A DNA stretch of 50,631 nucleotides from contig JAFLBY010000003.1 in assembly GCA_017302855.1 (NCBI GenBank), positions 1-50,631 on the forward strand, given 5' to 3'. This stretch comes from Candidatus Kapaibacterium sp. (GTDB lineage: Bacteria; Bacteroidota; Ignavibacteria; Kapaibacteriales; UBA961). The notes beneath the pieces were generated by a model, which was not told where the DNA came from, ran no database searches, and was given only the letters and a program-made list of their open reading frames with translations. The translations under genes were made by a program, and so were the position numbers. Shown piece after piece: positions 1,539 to 12,820 of the stretch (positions within the stretch are counted from its first letter, which is position 1; each line of letters opens with the position of its first letter).

Positions 1539-3941
1539 ATGGGCAGCAGAGTTAAATACATTGCATTCAGTTTTGTAATGATATGTATTCAAAACATAAC
1601 AGGACAGACTCTGGAGATTACTCCGTTATATAATACAATAGGTGTAAAAGTTACAAATATCTCATCTGCGGATAGTTGCATAATTGAATACAAACAATCA
1701 CAAGCGGACAACTGGCTTTTGGGGTATCAACCCGATAAAATATTATTAAACAATACGGAAGAATTTCGTGGAAGTATTTTCGGTTTGATTGAAAACATGA
1801 TGTATCAAATAAGAGTAACGGTTTATTCCGGGTCAAACCCCAAAACCCTTGCCGTAGCCCAAACAAAAACCTTACTTTCCCCAGATTTTAATCAAACGGG
1901 AATCATGAAGTGGGTGTCGCCGTCCGGTACAGGTAACTATACCCAAAGTAATCCCTGTAATCTTTCCACACTTTTTTCATCCGGTCAAGTGGTATGTGGT
2001 ACTATTATTATTGTTAAAGATGGCATTTATAATACAAGCGGTTTGCAACTTACTTTAAACAATCACTGTACAGAGGGAAATTCAATATTATTGATTGCTG
2101 AACGCGGAGCATCGCCGGTTTTTGACGCCGGTACTACTATCACAAGCTCATGGACAGCCCATGCTACAATCCCCAATTTATATTTTACACCCACACCACC
2201 GGGAACTTCTCATTCCAATATTTGTATTTTGGACAATAAAGCTCTTTATCCATATCCGTCATTAAAAGCTAATGTTTTGCTTGGTAACTATAACTTGAGT
2301 GACTTAAATTTTGGGCATGATGGATTTGTACGTGATGAAGACACTATTTGGATTAAGACAAACACCGGAATCAACCCCAACGCAACTATAGTAAAAGTTT
2401 CAAATGCGTTCAGATTTCTAACGGTTTACGGCAACAATAAAAATGCTTATTTGAAAATTAAAGGCATTGAATTCAGATACTATGGCAAACCCATGCTAAA
2501 TAGTCCGGATAACAGCAATGACTCATACGCAGCCACCGTATTTGATTTAAGAAATGTGCACCATATTTATTTTGACAGTTGTCGTTTCATATTCAACACT
2601 AACCATATATTATTTACGAATCAATGCAATAACCTTACTATTCAAAATTGCCTATTCAAGCACAATGCCGGTAAATGGTCACATGCAATGATAAAAAAAT
2701 CAAATGATTTCGTCAACACAATTGTAGCAACAGTATCATCTTCGAGAGCAAGAGGTGTAGAAACCCCGGGCGTATTTGTACATGAATCAAAATCTGTAGT
2801 TTTTAGAAATAATATATTTGATGGTGTCAATTCTGGCATTGAAAGCTATTTCGATATAGGACTGAAAGAAGAAATTGATATTCATGACAATGTGTTCATT
2901 GACAACTTTGATGCTATAGAATGCGATGGTCTTTGGTCTAACATAAGAGTGTGGAATAACGAAATTATCCGTCCTATGGCAGGCATTTCTGCCGCTCCGC
3001 CCCTTATTGGTCCACGGTACTTTTACCGGAATGTATTATACGGAATGACGGGCAGAAGAAATGAACAAGACGATCCTTATTTTATAGGTTGTAATCCTCT
3101 TTCAAATAACTATATGGGACAAGGAATTGGCATCAAAACTAACTCAGGCTACATTGGTAATATTTCAGTCGGAAACTTATACTTCTTTAATAACACATTT
3201 CACGCATCAGACACCCTAGGGTTTATTCTTACATCATGGAAAGCAGAATGGAGAAAAGCCATTTTCATGAATAACTCATACTCACATACCAATAGTTTTC
3301 CTTTTTTCTATTTTGATTTAGCTCACAATGCAATTAATGGAGATTTTCAAATCACATCAGCCCATGATAATTATTTCTCATTCAATATAAACTCTCCCAT
3401 CGTAAAAGTCAAACACATTCACGGTCAGTTTAACTGTTCAGAAATCAATAATATAAGCAACCTTGAAAATACATTAGCCAATATTTCAGGCAGCCCTAAT
3501 ATTTCCATTCTAAATCCCATTCAAGTTAATCCCTTGTTTGTATCTTCAGTAACCGGAAACTTTGAATTAACAGCCGCAAGTCCGTTGATAGATGCAGGTA
3601 ATAATATACAAGGATTTTATGATTATAATGGCATAAAACCTGATATAGGTGCGAAAGAAAGCAATTTCACATCAACGATTGTAGGAACCTATCCCGTTGA
3701 AAAACAAATAATTGTATATCCAAATCCATCGGGTGGTATATTTACTGTGAAACTAATCGAAAAAAACGAATTAGTAACTATTAATGTATTCAATTATTTG
3801 GGACAAAAAATTTACAGTATCAGCGAGATTGGACAAAATTTTTTAATTAACATTGAAAATCAATTGGATGGAGTTTTCTTTATCGAGATTGAACGGAATT
3901 CAGGCAGCACTGTTAAAAAAATAATAAAAATCAGTTTTTAG
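1539..3941 (+). CDS. Secreted right-handed beta-helix protein with T9SS type A sorting domain
   Basis: The 800-residue product starts with a signal peptide (VKYIAFSFVMICIQNITGQ). A short beta-sandwich-like region follows (about 25-110) with YNTIGVKVTNISSADSC, resembling a fibronectin type III fold. From about residue 120 to 690 it has features of a parallel beta-helix: WVSPSGTGNYTQSNPCNL at the start, as in polysaccharide-degrading or adhesive proteins, then runs of strands such as NLTIQNCLFKHNAG, VVFRNNIFDGVNSGIES and IDIHDNVFIDNFDAIEC. It ends in SPLIDAGN and PDIGAKE. Residues about 715-800 form a C-terminal sorting domain (VYPNPSGGIFTVKL ... LGQKIYSISE ... GVFFIEIE). It should be exported by Sec and then T9SS and end up at the cell surface or outside. 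A polysaccharide lyase role is possible but no catalytic residues are evident. Confidence 0.85.
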   Translation: MGSRVKYIAFSFVMICIQNITGQTLEITPLYNTIGVKVTNISSADSCIIEYKQSQADNWLLGYQPDKILLNNTEEFRGSIFGLIENMMYQIRVTVYSGSNPKTLAVAQTKTLLSPDFNQTGIMKWVSPSGTGNYTQSNPCNLSTLFSSGQVVCGTIIIVKDGIYNTSGLQLTLNNHCTEGNSILLIAERGASPVFDAGTTITSSWTAHATIPNLYFTPTPPGTSHSNICILDNKALYPYPSLKANVLLGNYNLSDLNFGHDGFVRDEDTIWIKTNTGINPNATIVKVSNAFRFLTVYGNNKNAYLKIKGIEFRYYGKPMLNSPDNSNDSYAATVFDLRNVHHIYFDSCRFIFNTNHILFTNQCNNLTIQNCLFKHNAGKWSHAMIKKSNDFVNTIVATVSSSRARGVETPGVFVHESKSVVFRNNIFDGVNSGIESYFDIGLKEEIDIHDNVFIDNFDAIECDGLWSNIRVWNNEIIRPMAGISAAPPLIGPRYFYRNVLYGMTGRRNEQDDPYFIGCNPLSNNYMGQGIGIKTNSGYIGNISVGNLYFFNNTFHASDTLGFILTSWKAEWRKAIFMNNSYSHTNSFPFFYFDLAHNAINGDFQITSAHDNYFSFNINSPIVKVKHIHGQFNCSEINNISNLENTLANISGSPNISILNPIQVNPLFVSSVTGNFELTAASPLIDAGNNIQGFYDYNGIKPDIGAKESNFTSTIVGTYPVEKQIIVYPNPSGGIFTVKLIEKNELVTINVFNYLGQKIYSISEIGQNFLINIENQLDGVFFIEIERNSGSTVKKIIKISF

Positions 3942-4084: not shown

Positions 4085-5824
4085 ATGAATAAACAGCAAC
4101 TAACAGAAAAACATAGTGTTATAAACGACGCAATATTTCAGATGAAAACCATCATATTGACCGGAAATCGGATCTTCAAGAATTTGCTTACTCCTATGCC
4201 AAAATTCAAGGACAATCAATTTTTGATTAACGAACCGGTAATTGCATTTTCTGAAAGTGACCTTTGGAATCCATTCGACAATAAAGAAAATTGGATTTTG
4301 ACAGCAGGAAAAATTGAAAACTTACGAATTTCGGCGAGGAAACTTCACGGACTTGAAGTAAAAGCAAACGAAGTTTTTAGTTTTTGGAAACATATTGGCA
4401 ATCCAAATTTTGGAAAAAGCTATGTGATGGGTCGAGAAATTAGAGAAGGTTGTATTGTTCCAACAATTGCAGGCGGGCTTTGCCAACTTTCAAACGCACT
4501 TTATGACGCTGCACTTAAGGCAAATTTTGACATCATTGAAAGACACAAACACACAAAAGTAATTAAGGGATCACTATCTGAACAAGATCGTGACGCAACT
4601 GTAAAATGGAATTATATTGACTTACGTTTTAAATCTTCCTTTGATTTTAGAATTGAGACGGTGTTAACCTCAGATAAGTTGGTGGTAGGTTTTAAAAGTG
4701 CACAAAAAAATGTAAAATCAACTGACAATAATTCAAATTTGCGACAATCCAACAAACTCAACGATTGCTACTCTTGCGGAAACTTTGCCTGTTTCAAACA
4801 TCAAGATAGAACTTCGATGAAACAGAATATTGCAACAACAACATTTATTTTGGACGAAAAATGGCCCGAATACGACCGATATATCAAGGATATAACCACA
4901 GATTCCGATAATTTTATTGTACCACTTAAGCAAAGCACATTCATAAAAACAGACAGATATGCCTGGAGTGCTGCAAAGTCGCAAAAAACTACAGCAACAA
5001 ACTTTCAAGGAATTTATAGAGCGTTAAAACTTCGTTTTTTCCCCAAACATAAAAACAATGTTTTTGAACTTGCATTGCAACTCGACAAGAAAATAGCTGT
5101 TGCAGCAGCACGAAAAATTCCAATAGATTCAACACATGTAGTTATCTCACAAAACTTGTTACCATTCGTATTTGAAACAGGCGCATTAGGTGGTAGGACT
5201 TTTGATGTACTAATGACAAGACTTCCATTTGAGAAGCTTCACGAAAGACTGGATCACGCATTTTTACATCATCCTGAAAGCCCAACTCTTAACGATTTCA
5301 GAGCCGGTAAAAAATTAATCGAGCTTGAAAACAAAGCATTAAAAAAAGCACGACAAATAATTACACCTCACACAGAAATTGCTGAAATCTTCAAAAACAA
5401 AGTTGTTACATTGGATTGGTTCATTCCTCCATCGTCAAACGGACAAGCGAGCGGACATAAAGTGCTTTTTCCGGCTTCAGCTATTGGAAGAAAGGGTGCT
5501 TATGAGATTCGAAGATTAGCAAGTGAGCTTCAATTAAACTTGACAGTTTCCGGAAGAACAACTGAGAATGATAATTTTTGGAATGAATTACATATTGAAA
5601 ATTTTAACGGCAATTTTGACCAAATAGGACTTGTCGTTTATCCAACATATATAGAGCATCAACCAAGACAAATTTTAAACGCCATTTCAAAAGGAATACC
5701 TATCATCACCACAGCAGCTTGTGGTCTTAAAGATTCAGACCAAGTGAAAATTATAGAATTAAGTAACTATGAACATTTAAAAATTGAAGTGAGCAAACGG
5801 ATGGGAATACATCACGAATGCTAA
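4085..5824 (+). CDS. VanW-family domain fused to a GT-B glycosyltransferase-like domain
   Basis: The product has 579 residues. Residues about 40-205 are VanW-like: EVFSFWKHIGNPNFGKSYV, REGCIVPTIAGGLCQLSNAL and IIERHKHT are hallmarks. A linker carries C228-x2-C-x4-C-x2-H239 (CYSCGNFACFKH), which could hold a metal or cluster. From about 255 the protein resembles a GT-B fold enzyme: VISQNLLPFVFETGALGGR and FDVLMTRLPFEKLHERLDHA in the N-terminal half, and HKVLFPASAIGRKGAYEIRR plus YPTYIEHQPRQILNAISKGI and PIITTAACGLKD in the donor-binding half. VanW function is unresolved, although some members sit in cell-wall gene clusters. The fusion suggests transfer of sugar to an envelope polymer, which is inference. 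There is no signal peptide. The gene is monocistronic, with repeat copy 2 following its stop by 15 bp. Confidence 0.75.
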   Translation: MNKQQLTEKHSVINDAIFQMKTIILTGNRIFKNLLTPMPKFKDNQFLINEPVIAFSESDLWNPFDNKENWILTAGKIENLRISARKLHGLEVKANEVFSFWKHIGNPNFGKSYVMGREIREGCIVPTIAGGLCQLSNALYDAALKANFDIIERHKHTKVIKGSLSEQDRDATVKWNYIDLRFKSSFDFRIETVLTSDKLVVGFKSAQKNVKSTDNNSNLRQSNKLNDCYSCGNFACFKHQDRTSMKQNIATTTFILDEKWPEYDRYIKDITTDSDNFIVPLKQSTFIKTDRYAWSAAKSQKTTATNFQGIYRALKLRFFPKHKNNVFELALQLDKKIAVAAARKIPIDSTHVVISQNLLPFVFETGALGGRTFDVLMTRLPFEKLHERLDHAFLHHPESPTLNDFRAGKKLIELENKALKKARQIITPHTEIAEIFKNKVVTLDWFIPPSSNGQASGHKVLFPASAIGRKGAYEIRRLASELQLNLTVSGRTTENDNFWNELHIENFNGNFDQIGLVVYPTYIEHQPRQILNAISKGIPIITTAACGLKDSDQVKIIELSNYEHLKIEVSKRMGIHHEC

Positions 5825-5838
5825 TAGTCGCGGCTCTC

Positions 5839-5938
5839 ACACAACACATTTATATTTTTTTCATACGTTTTGTCTGTGTAAGAAGATTGTGTAGTTTTGA
5901 GAACATAAAATGCGCTTTGGGTGAATGCGGGAGATATA
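5839..5938. repeat. Dispersed ~100-bp intergenic repeat, copy 2
   Basis: It is near-identical to 1349-1448 and also lies directly behind a stop codon (5824). Differences are scattered single bases plus a small change around the AACAATA/ACATAAA block. The right-hand inverted end present in copy 1 is not found here, so this copy looks truncated or diverged on its 3' side. Confidence 0.75.
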
Positions 5939-10429: not shown

Positions 10430-10620
10430 TGAAATGCGGCAGCGTATTAAATCCCGAAGGGATTGCACGTTTGTAGAATTTGTGTTGATGTACTTGGCGA
10501 ATTGCCTTAAACCTATAAAGTTTTGAAAATTATAGGTTTGGAGACTGAATCCACCCCGTCAGACTGCGTCTGCCACCGAGGAATGAGAAACCACCCCGTC
10601 CTGCGGACACCCCTCCGGCG
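10430..10620. repeat. Dispersed repeat family R1, unit A (contains hairpin)
   Basis: The order of blocks is GAGGGGAATTTTTGAAA, AAATCCCGAAGGGATT, CGTTTGTAGAA, a hairpin AAACCTATAA/TTATAGGTTT (10509-10518 with 10530-10539), GGAGACTGAATCCACCCCGTC and CTGCGGACACCCCTCCGG. Unit B follows directly, and a third copy is at 12617-12820. Confidence 0.75.
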
Positions 10621-10621
10621 G

Positions 10622-10800
10622 ATGGGAATTTTTGAAACGCAACAATACATAAATCCCGAATGGATTAAACGTTTATAGAACAATGGGGTTGATGCGATGG
10701 GCGATGTTCCGTAAACCTATAAGATTTTGAAAATTATAGGTTTGGAGACTGAATCCACCCCGTCAGACTGCGTCTGCCACCCCTCAATGAGGGGAATTTT
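10622..10800. repeat. Dispersed repeat family R1, unit B, with truncated start of another unit at the end
   Basis: The same block order as unit A recurs with point changes. It adds TGGGGTTGATGCGATGGGCG, which is shared with the 12.7-kb copy. The hairpin is AAACCTATAA (10713-10722) with TTATAGGTTT (10734-10743). It ends in CCCCTCAATGAGGGGAATTTT (10780-10800), the beginning of a further unit that is cut off where toxin-like coding sequence starts. Confidence 0.75.
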
Positions 10801-10870
10801 TTGCCCCGCGCTTGGGTCAATCTCATTGTGCTTGCTGACCCGTTGGGGATGGATGATGAAAATGTAACAG
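10801..10870 (+). pseudogene. Stub resembling the end of an Rhs-type repeat core
   Basis: Frame 1 reads VNLIVLADPLGMDDENV, close to the conserved N-x-DPxGx end of Rhs/YD-repeat cores that precedes the variable toxin tip. Upstream the frame continues only into repeat unit B. Downstream it is out of frame with the toxin-like ORF starting at 10871. It is best read as a remnant left when the tip was moved or the core lost. The match is short, so certainty is limited. Confidence 0.4.
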
Positions 10871-11137
10871 TTGGTCAAATTTGGATATTATATTGGAAAA
10901 GGAACAGAGAAAAGAATGAGAAAATCAATAAGAAGAATTATAAAAAGACATTCAGAACAACTTTTAGAAGCGTCATATCTTCCAGCTGCTAATACCGAAG
11001 AGGCATATATGTTGGAATATTTATTGATGAGATCACTGGATAAAGCGCCGCTAGCTCATAAACAAACATCAATTTTATATAATAAAATTTGGTCACCGGG
11101 AAGACTTATATATAAATCACGAACAAAAGGGTTTTAA
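10871..11137 (+). CDS. Displaced polymorphic-toxin tip, GIY-YIG/URI nuclease-like domain (probably not independently functional)
   Basis: The 88-residue frame begins at a TTG. It reads FGYYIGKGTEKRM, then a basic helix, EEAYMLEYLLMRSL, then SILYNKIWSPGR. This order (Tyr-Ile-Gly-Lys, an Arg, a helix with Glu, an Asn) fits the GIY-YIG/URI fold used as DNase tips of Rhs- and Wap-type toxins (Tox-URI). It lacks an N-terminal trafficking part and is preceded out of frame by an Rhs-like stub. The next gene begins 3 bp after its stop, the usual toxin-immunity spacing. Alternatives are an unrelated small basic protein or a homing-endonuclease fragment. Start codon and expression are uncertain. Confidence 0.5.
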   Translation: MVKFGYYIGKGTEKRMRKSIRRIIKRHSEQLLEASYLPAANTEEAYMLEYLLMRSLDKAPLAHKQTSILYNKIWSPGRLIYKSRTKGF

Positions 11138-11139
11138 AA

Positions 11140-12019
11140 ATGGAAATATCAAGCAATAGAGTCTATGTTAAAGAAAAATCTGGTTTTACTACCATTGTAT
11201 TTGATACGCGCAAAACAGAAATGTATATAGATTATATAAAACAAAGTGGGATCAAAAATATCGTTGTAGATACCAGTACAACTTACTTGTGTCAAGACTT
11301 GTCACCATTAATGCCTGTATGCGATATTTTGGAGTCACTTTTTATCAATAGTGAACACTTTAATTATGATAAAATTAAATATTTTTCAAATCTAAAAATT
11401 TTGTCAATTCCTGAAAATAAAAAAGAGGTTATTGATTTAAAAAATTTTCCTAATCTCGAAGAATTAAACTGTATTTTTACAAAAAAAAATTGTCAATCTG
11501 TCATCTTGTGAAAATTTAAAATCTTTACGACTGTTGAATTACAATCCATCTACAAAAGATTTACATGAAATACCTGCTTTTCATAACTTGCTGAATTTAG
11601 AAATTTCATTTGCAAACATTCATACTCTTAGTGGTATCGAAAATCTTAGTTCATTGAAAAAATTTGAAATTTGGCGTGCCCCGAACTTACAGACTATTTC
11701 ATCATTAATACCATTATCCCAAAGCATAGAAACACTTTTTATAGAATCATGTAAAAAAATTACCGACTATGAAATTGTAGGAAATTTAAAACTCCTAAAA
11801 AAATTAAAAATATCAGATTCAGGTGAAATACAAAGTCTATCGTTTATCAAACAATTAAAAGATCTCGAATTTCTTAGTTTTTGGGGCACAAAAGTACTGG
11901 ATGGGGACATCTCTCATTGTGAGGGAATTAAATTTGTTGGTTTCGATGATAATAGACATTATAACCGCAAATCTAAAGACTTTGAAGATACAAATATTAA
12001 TTACCCTCCCGTTCTTTGA
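11140..12019 (+). pseudogene. Leucine-rich-repeat protein in the immunity position, split by a frameshift in an A9 run
   Basis: The first 123 codons (11140-11511) and the frame ending at 12019 together encode one LRR protein of about 293 residues. Examples are FSNLKILSIPEN, NFPNLEELNC, CENLKSLRLLN, FHNLLNLEISF, ENLSSLKKFEIW and LKDLEFLSFWGT, spaced at about 21-24 residues. The break falls at a run of nine A (11481-11489). Switching from frame 1 to frame 2 there joins NLEELNCIFTKK to IVNLSSCENLKSLRLLN without loss of repeat phase. It may be a true mutation, slippage-dependent expression, or a sequencing error. Direct coupling to the toxin-like ORF (3 bp) suggests an immunity protein. There is no signal peptide, which fits a cytoplasmic nuclease inhibitor. 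Confidence 0.65.
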
Positions 12020-12033
12020 AAACTATGAGGCAT

Positions 12034-12086
12034 TTCGATTAGCCCCATCCCAATTCCCCGACGGGGAAGGCGAAAAAAGCGGGGCG
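12034..12086. repeat. Dispersed repeat family R2, copy 1
   Basis: It shares TTCGATTAGCCCCATCCC, the palindrome TTCCCCGACGGGGAA and an AAAAAAGCGGGGCG end with 12551-12602, differing by one indel. It begins 15 bp after the LRR gene's stop. In one frame it would encode RLAPSQFPDGEG. Confidence 0.8.
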
Positions 12087-12163
12087 GAGTTACGATTAAA
12101 TACCCAATTATTTATGGAAAGGCTAAAAATGGGTAAATTACCAATAAAAAAAAAGAAATAATT

Positions 12164-12544
12164 ATGAAAAATGTAATTTTGTTTTTACTGTCTTTTATGA
12201 CTATAGCTATAATATCTGTTAGTATGTTTTACGGATGTAATAAAACAGAGATTAAGCAATTATATAATATGAAACCTTCTAAAGGTGATGACTTTTTAGA
12301 AATGTATTTAGTTTATAATCCTCCTAACAACGATGATGAATTAAAAAAAATGTTACTTGATTTCAATAAAGATATGGATACAATTAAGCAAATTGGCAGA
12401 CGAGTTTTCTTACGCGAAGACACAGGTTGGGATCCTTATGATTATGAAAGAAACGGTTGTTATGAAATTAATAGCTCAAGTGTACTCATGGATGTAACGA
12501 AGTATCCGAACGGTAGAGTCAGTTATCATTATATGGGTCTATGA
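12164..12544 (+). CDS. Small putative lipoprotein, unknown function
   Basis: The 126-residue product has a hydrophobic N-terminus (NVILFLLSFMTIAIISVSMF) leading to YGC, a plausible lipobox with the lipidated Cys at about residue 25. It is followed by a polar domain rich in Asp, Asn and Tyr (DDFLEMYLVYNPPNNDDELK, REDTGWDPYDYERNG) and a C-terminal strand pattern ending VSYHYMGL. No family is recognised. It starts 3 bp after a short frame that emerges from repeat R2 and ends RLNTQLFMERLKMGKLP, so it occupies a toxin-then-immunity layout like the preceding module. An immunity role is inference only. R2 copy 2 follows 6 bp after its stop. Confidence 0.6.
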   Translation: MKNVILFLLSFMTIAIISVSMFYGCNKTEIKQLYNMKPSKGDDFLEMYLVYNPPNNDDELKKMLLDFNKDMDTIKQIGRRVFLREDTGWDPYDYERNGCYEINSSSVLMDVTKYPNGRVSYHYMGL

Positions 12545-12550
12545 CCGCAC

Positions 12551-12602
12551 TTCGATTAGCCCCATCCCAATTCCCCGACGGGGAAGGCAAAAAAGCGGGG
12601 CG
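12551..12602. repeat. Dispersed repeat family R2, copy 2
   Basis: It is near-identical to 12034-12086 and immediately follows the stop of the small lipoprotein gene. The two copies therefore flank bases 12087-12550 as direct repeats. The central TTCCCCG-A-CGGGGAA is a strong GC-rich inverted repeat. Confidence 0.8.
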
Positions 12603-12616
12603 CGGTTTTGGGTACA

Positions 12617-12820
12617 TCCACCCCGTCAGACTGCGTCTGCCACCGAGGAATGAGAAACCACCCCGTCCTGCGGACACCCCTCCGGCAAATTCAGCGGAGG
12701 ATAAATCCCGTAGGGATGGAACGTTTATAGAATAATGGGGTTGATGCGATGGGCGATGTTCCATAAACCTATAAGATTTCAAAAAACCTTATAGGTTTGG
12801 ATACGGAATCCACCCCGTCC
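12617..12820. repeat. Dispersed repeat family R1, unit C
   Basis: 12617-12684 matches the CCACCCCGTC/CTGCGGACACCCCTCCGG block of unit A. 12690-12820 matches the TAAATCCC...GGATGG, ACGTTTATAGAA, GGGGTTGATGCGATGGGCG and hairpin block of unit B. Its hairpin AAACCTATAAG (12765-12775) / CTTATAGGTTT (12788-12798) is one pair longer than in units A and B, with both sides changed together. Confidence 0.75.

Follow-up and report, generated by a model that had tools for sequence, protein, structure and literature searches.

A VanW domain joined to a predicted GT-B glycosyltransferase-like half by a conserved cysteine linker, encoded by a rare and seemingly mobile gene in Bacteroidota

Two VanW-domain proteins of C. 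difficile, LdtCd4 and LdtCd5, have been described as L,D-transpeptidases (Bollinger, 2024, as cited in the review PMC12729407; also PMC11986978). The same review gives their catalytic triad as Cys-His-small residue and presents both enzymes as extracellular, membrane-anchored proteins that carry PG4 domains. An earlier note on the DNA considered here had called VanW a domain of unknown biochemical role, a description that these enzymes have put out of date. In PglH, a glycosyltransferase with an E-x7-E donor motif, the ribose is held by the second Glu of the motif, and an Ala in place of either Glu comes at a cost of about 300-fold (PMC5792488).

The window, meaning the whole 50,631-nucleotide stretch of Candidatus Kapaibacterium DNA that was analysed, encodes a protein in which these two kinds of domain occur together. 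Its coding sequence (4085–5824, forward strand, stop included) begins with ATG, has no internal stops and specifies an intact frame of 579 residues, with relatives that extend over both halves. Near the N terminus, the secondary structure of two low-confidence models and the sequence predict an amphipathic helix (residues 12–35, positions 4118–4189), followed by the VanW domain (PF04294, residues 76–198, positions 4310–4678), a cysteine-rich linker and a C-terminal half resembling a glycosyltransferase. The VanW assignment is strong (E 9.7e-30, 103 bits against a Pfam cut-off of 27) and was obtained for all 17 family members scanned. The fusion proposed by the earlier note was thus borne out, both by this match and by the predicted fold of the C-terminal half (AF2, Foldseek), with 19 homologs covering both halves. 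What is new is the VanW-glycosyltransferase architecture, together with a family-specific set of cysteines and an altered donor site; each domain is itself already known. We found no VanW-family protein with a fused glycosyltransferase in the open-licence literature, which is weak evidence of absence.

At least 21 homologs were identified, with pairwise identities of 34% to 87%, and every intact member with sequence across the junction has the same architecture. A search for related loci across species genomes, seeded on exact peptides, returned 16 loci, a lower bound, all in Bacteroidota wherever the record gives a lineage. The genome search added members from G524 (L058, 43% identical), G762 (L086), G907 (L087) and G1042 (L088), as well as a broken copy from G1003. 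Copies from named species include L023 of Empedobacter sedimenti and L027 of Neptunitalea chrysea. In G1003 (L084/L085), the break lies between the VanW and glycosyltransferase parts and could be a pseudogene or an assembly error; the VanW part retains CxxCx4CxxN. The fusion is rare: among 123 genomes of the window's order it occurs in 1, among 391 of the class in 2, and among 376 of another order in 4, counting the broken copy. Within the phylum, VanWs that stand alone are likewise uncommon (7/395, open frames of 250–295 aa). No full-length phage-borne relatives were found, and plasmid relatives matched in the VanW part only. On plasmids of Aureibacter and Bartonella (L046, L047), stand-alone VanW genes have a gene for an M15 (VanY-like) metallopeptidase in the same stretch, directly adjoining the VanW gene in Bartonella, and the two are a possible functional pair.

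Conservation is stronger in the VanW half (entropy of 0.47 bits) than in the glycosyltransferase half (1.2–1.4 bits). C133, H154, H156, D170 and D179 are invariant in 22/22 fused proteins, and C133, H156 and D179 are common to the fused family and stand-alone VanWs. C133 (within GGLCQ, positions 4481–4483) is the predicted catalytic Cys and H156 the predicted catalytic His (H154 and H156, positions 4544–4552). Together with the L,D-transpeptidase activity of the C. difficile VanWs, the invariance of C133 and H156 argues for acyl chemistry in this half. AF2 modelled parts of VanW and the linker with low confidence in two models, so a joint metal site was not seen; Foldseek returned an empty result for the VanW-half model, which is too weak for a fold call, and we found no solved VanW structure.

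Between the two halves, C228, C231, C236 and H239 stand exactly where the earlier note had placed them (C-YS-C-GNFA-C-FK-H, residues 228–239, positions 4766–4801). The lack of conservation that the earlier note had named as a refutation did not occur: the three cysteines are present in 21/21 members and the histidine in 19/21, with Q in its place in L058 and N in the broken copy L084. Residues 226–239 (N226 to H239) form a conserved island, with a mean entropy of 0.48 bits versus 2.06 and 1.99 bits in the flanking sequence. The family alignment also revealed a family-specific cysteine that the earlier note had overlooked: C123 (positions 4451–4453), a candidate extra ligand ten residues before C133, is present in 22/22 fused proteins and in 0/6 aligned stand-alone VanWs. 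As H239 is replaceable and C123 is invariant, the site is better written as CxxCx4C plus H239 and/or C123. This conservation makes it a candidate metal-binding site, and no known metal-motif family was matched by the cluster in Pfam or among PDB sequences. The three invariant cysteines and the likewise invariant C123, ten residues from C133, along with a histidine that Q or N can replace, would also suit an Fe-S or redox-active thiol center that gates the catalytic cysteine and places the enzyme under redox control. We regard such a center as improbable, considering that the cluster resembles none of the known Fe-S families and that short CxxC...CxxH motifs more usually bind zinc.

The C-terminal half of the window protein falls below Pfam's glycosyltransferase cut-offs (E 0.013), but PF13692/PF00534 are matched by 15/16 family members with E <= 1, the best value being 5e-6. 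In an AF2 model built with 17 homologs, residues 250–579 mostly have pLDDT values of 75–94, and Foldseek against the PDB placed solved GT-B enzymes at the top with a probability of 1.0, namely a methylmannose polysaccharide mannosyltransferase (7qsg), BshA (3mbo) and PglA (8dqd). A GT-B fold is therefore predicted, and the other refuting outcome named in the earlier note, a C-terminal half that is not GT-B in the predicted structure, did not occur either. The predicted fold comprises an N-terminal, acceptor-side Rossmann domain (approximately 4832–5434) and a C-terminal, donor-side domain (5447–5821). The latter is WaaG-like, as a profile of the glycosyltransferase half aligned with E. coli WaaG (hhalign, E 4e-6) over the donor domain, spanning the region of GRKG and E281-x7-E289. 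The RKG motif (R469-K470-G471, positions 5489–5497), which aligns with GRKG of WaaG, is intact in 19/20 members. An apparent loss of the donor Arg at position 465 was dropped from consideration, since the alignment shows that WaaG also has Ser there.

Conservation of the donor site bears on whether this half transfers sugar or only recognizes it. R469 and G471 are found in 20/20 members and K470, E524 and R528 in 19/20 each, and the second Glu of E-x7-E (position 532) is K in 14, N in 3, R in 1 and E in 2 of the 20. The window protein accordingly has E524-x7-N532, with R528 between (positions 5654–5680), and only L088 has a complete E-x7-E, accompanied by Q528; L087 has P-x7-E with RNG. These variants suggest that the donor site has been altered rather than simply lost. 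As the site is non-canonical in most members, the glycosyltransferase half might bind instead of transfer. The main rival to our reading takes this further: catalysis would fall to the VanW half, with the GT-B half as a recognition module of little or no activity, which would bind a sugar linked to a nucleotide or lipid and offer its peptide to VanW. The stronger conservation of the VanW half and the variable donor residues, including the K, N or R at position 532 in 18/20 and the loss of both the first Glu (to P) and the Lys (to N) in L087, are what such a module would lead one to expect. The nearly invariant R469, K470, G471 and E524 and the complete motif of L088 argue against this rival, however, as does purifying selection on the glycosyltransferase half: between L017 and L026, dN/dS is about 0.19 there and about 0.10 for VanW, so both halves are maintained. 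On balance, we consider the rival rather unlikely.

In the two closest pairs (L017/L026 and L022/L024), DNA identity of 84–90% sets in 11–13 nt before the start codon, and the DNA outside the similarity block is unrelated; in L017/L026, the similarity stops just short of the stop codon. No conserved neighbor or operon partner was found across the fusion loci. Given the similarity ending near the gene's ends, this lack of a conserved neighbor and the patchy, rare distribution, the gene seems to move as single-gene cargo. Most nodes of the tree are unresolved; in it, copies from Flavobacteriaceae and Chitinophaga stand closest to the window protein, although the gene is missing from other genomes of the window's order. 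L017 and L026, from two Crocinitomicaceae MAGs, have further single-gene blocks in common in shuffled order, which suggests a gene-shuffling mechanism in Bacteroidota. Several copies (L014, L017, L022, L024, L026, L027 and L086) lie within arrays of short, same-strand orphan ORFs, and nearly all array ORFs around the gene in L017, L026 and L086 (8588–14472) are without Pfam matches. In L018, the end of the fusion gene is overlapped by a gene (2863–3303) for a CDI immunity protein (CdiI_3, E 8e-30).

A rare, patchy distribution and movement as a single gene would also be expected of an accessory resistance gene whose product, an antibiotic-type glycosyl or acyl transferase, inactivates or modifies a compound from outside. 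An Arr-type rifampin ADP-ribosyltransferase among the pooled neighbors and a GNAT acetyltransferase as the next gene in L013 fit this explanation, but the neighbors are mixed, with many housekeeping genes, and the VanW domain points to envelope peptides. We judge a resistance function unlikely. Anti-phage defense was rejected, as PADLOC gave 0 matches and one weak GT4-conflict match (E 0.26) was not credited.

The window contains a 99-nt repeat in two copies that are 92% identical (1349–1447 and 5839–5937), lying just downstream of an ORF at 654–1319 and of the VanW-glycosyltransferase gene, respectively. Elsewhere in this genome, partial copies with an unchanged orientation lie downstream of further ORFs (L041 on C46, three copies; L042; L044), a cassette-like layout without attC features. 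A simple scan of 19 sequences for attC arms (RYYYAAC...GTTRRRY) found none, and no conserved hairpin with covariation was found. As integrase_gron matches were below the cut-off as well, a classical integron was rejected; such matches occur in all control genomes too. Separately, G+C-rich repeats surround small ORFs at 10448–12819, among them an identical stretch of 71 nt that occurs at both 10549 and 12616, and relatives of 85–104 nt.

Taken together, we tentatively favor, at somewhat below an even chance, a single mobile accessory gene whose product, an enzyme of two modules, resides in the cytoplasm or at the inner membrane and acts on a precursor of the cell envelope. We infer the cytoplasm as the most likely compartment, in line with the absence of an apparent signal peptide from the aligned N termini, and an envelope precursor as the most likely substrate. 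The VanW half would use C133-H156 thioester chemistry, for acyl transfer or hydrolysis, on the peptide part of the precursor, and CxxCx4C with H239 and/or C123 would bind zinc, or less likely an Fe-S cluster, and anchor VanW to the linker. What the WaaG-like half binds would be either an activated sugar or the precursor's own sugar part, and most members probably still transfer sugar through a rearranged donor site of RKG, E524, R528 and K/N532. Against this reading, we count the loss of the second Glu in 18/20, the low confidence of the VanW and linker models, the missing operon partner, the failure to find a substrate for the fusion protein, and the extracellular location of the known active VanW transpeptidases, which the fusion seemingly does not share: by eye, the aligned family N termini show no apparent cleavable signal peptide or transmembrane stretch, only the amphipathic helix with conserved basic positions. 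A more specific version, in which a mobile, cytoplasmic enzyme couples VanW acyl transfer and glycosyl transfer on one nucleotide- or lipid-linked envelope precursor and a metal or redox gate is formed by the family-specific C123 and CxxCx4C together, seems quite unlikely to us; if true, it would be a precursor-stage modification that has not yet been described.

The fusion offers a concrete handle on the role of VanWs without a secretion signal, among them the accessory VanW found in vancomycin-resistance clusters. That VanW is naturally joined here to a domain that binds sugar restricts the probable substrates to carriers of both a sugar and a peptide (the peptide by analogy with LdtCd4/5), and a single protein would allow metal, thiol and donor-site mutants to be tested together.

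Compared with known systems, the fusion has in common with LdtCd4 and LdtCd5 a VanW domain with conserved catalytic-type Cys and His, but unlike them it is without an apparent export signal and has C123, the CxxCx4C(H) linker and the GT-B half. The VanWs of vanB/vanG clusters and the stand-alone VanWs of Bacteroidota resemble it in their VanW core and lack of an apparent signal peptide, whereas they are 250–295 aa long, end after VanW, and have neither CxxCx4C, C123 nor a glycosyltransferase half. With GT4 enzymes of the WaaG (RfaG) type, the fusion shares the predicted GT-B fold, the GRKG motif, the first Glu of E-x7-E and a G-[IL]-P-[VI]-x-T-T stretch, and it differs from WaaG in the replacement of the second Glu by K, N or R in 18/20 members, in having R528 at the position of a WaaG Ile, and in the attached VanW domain.
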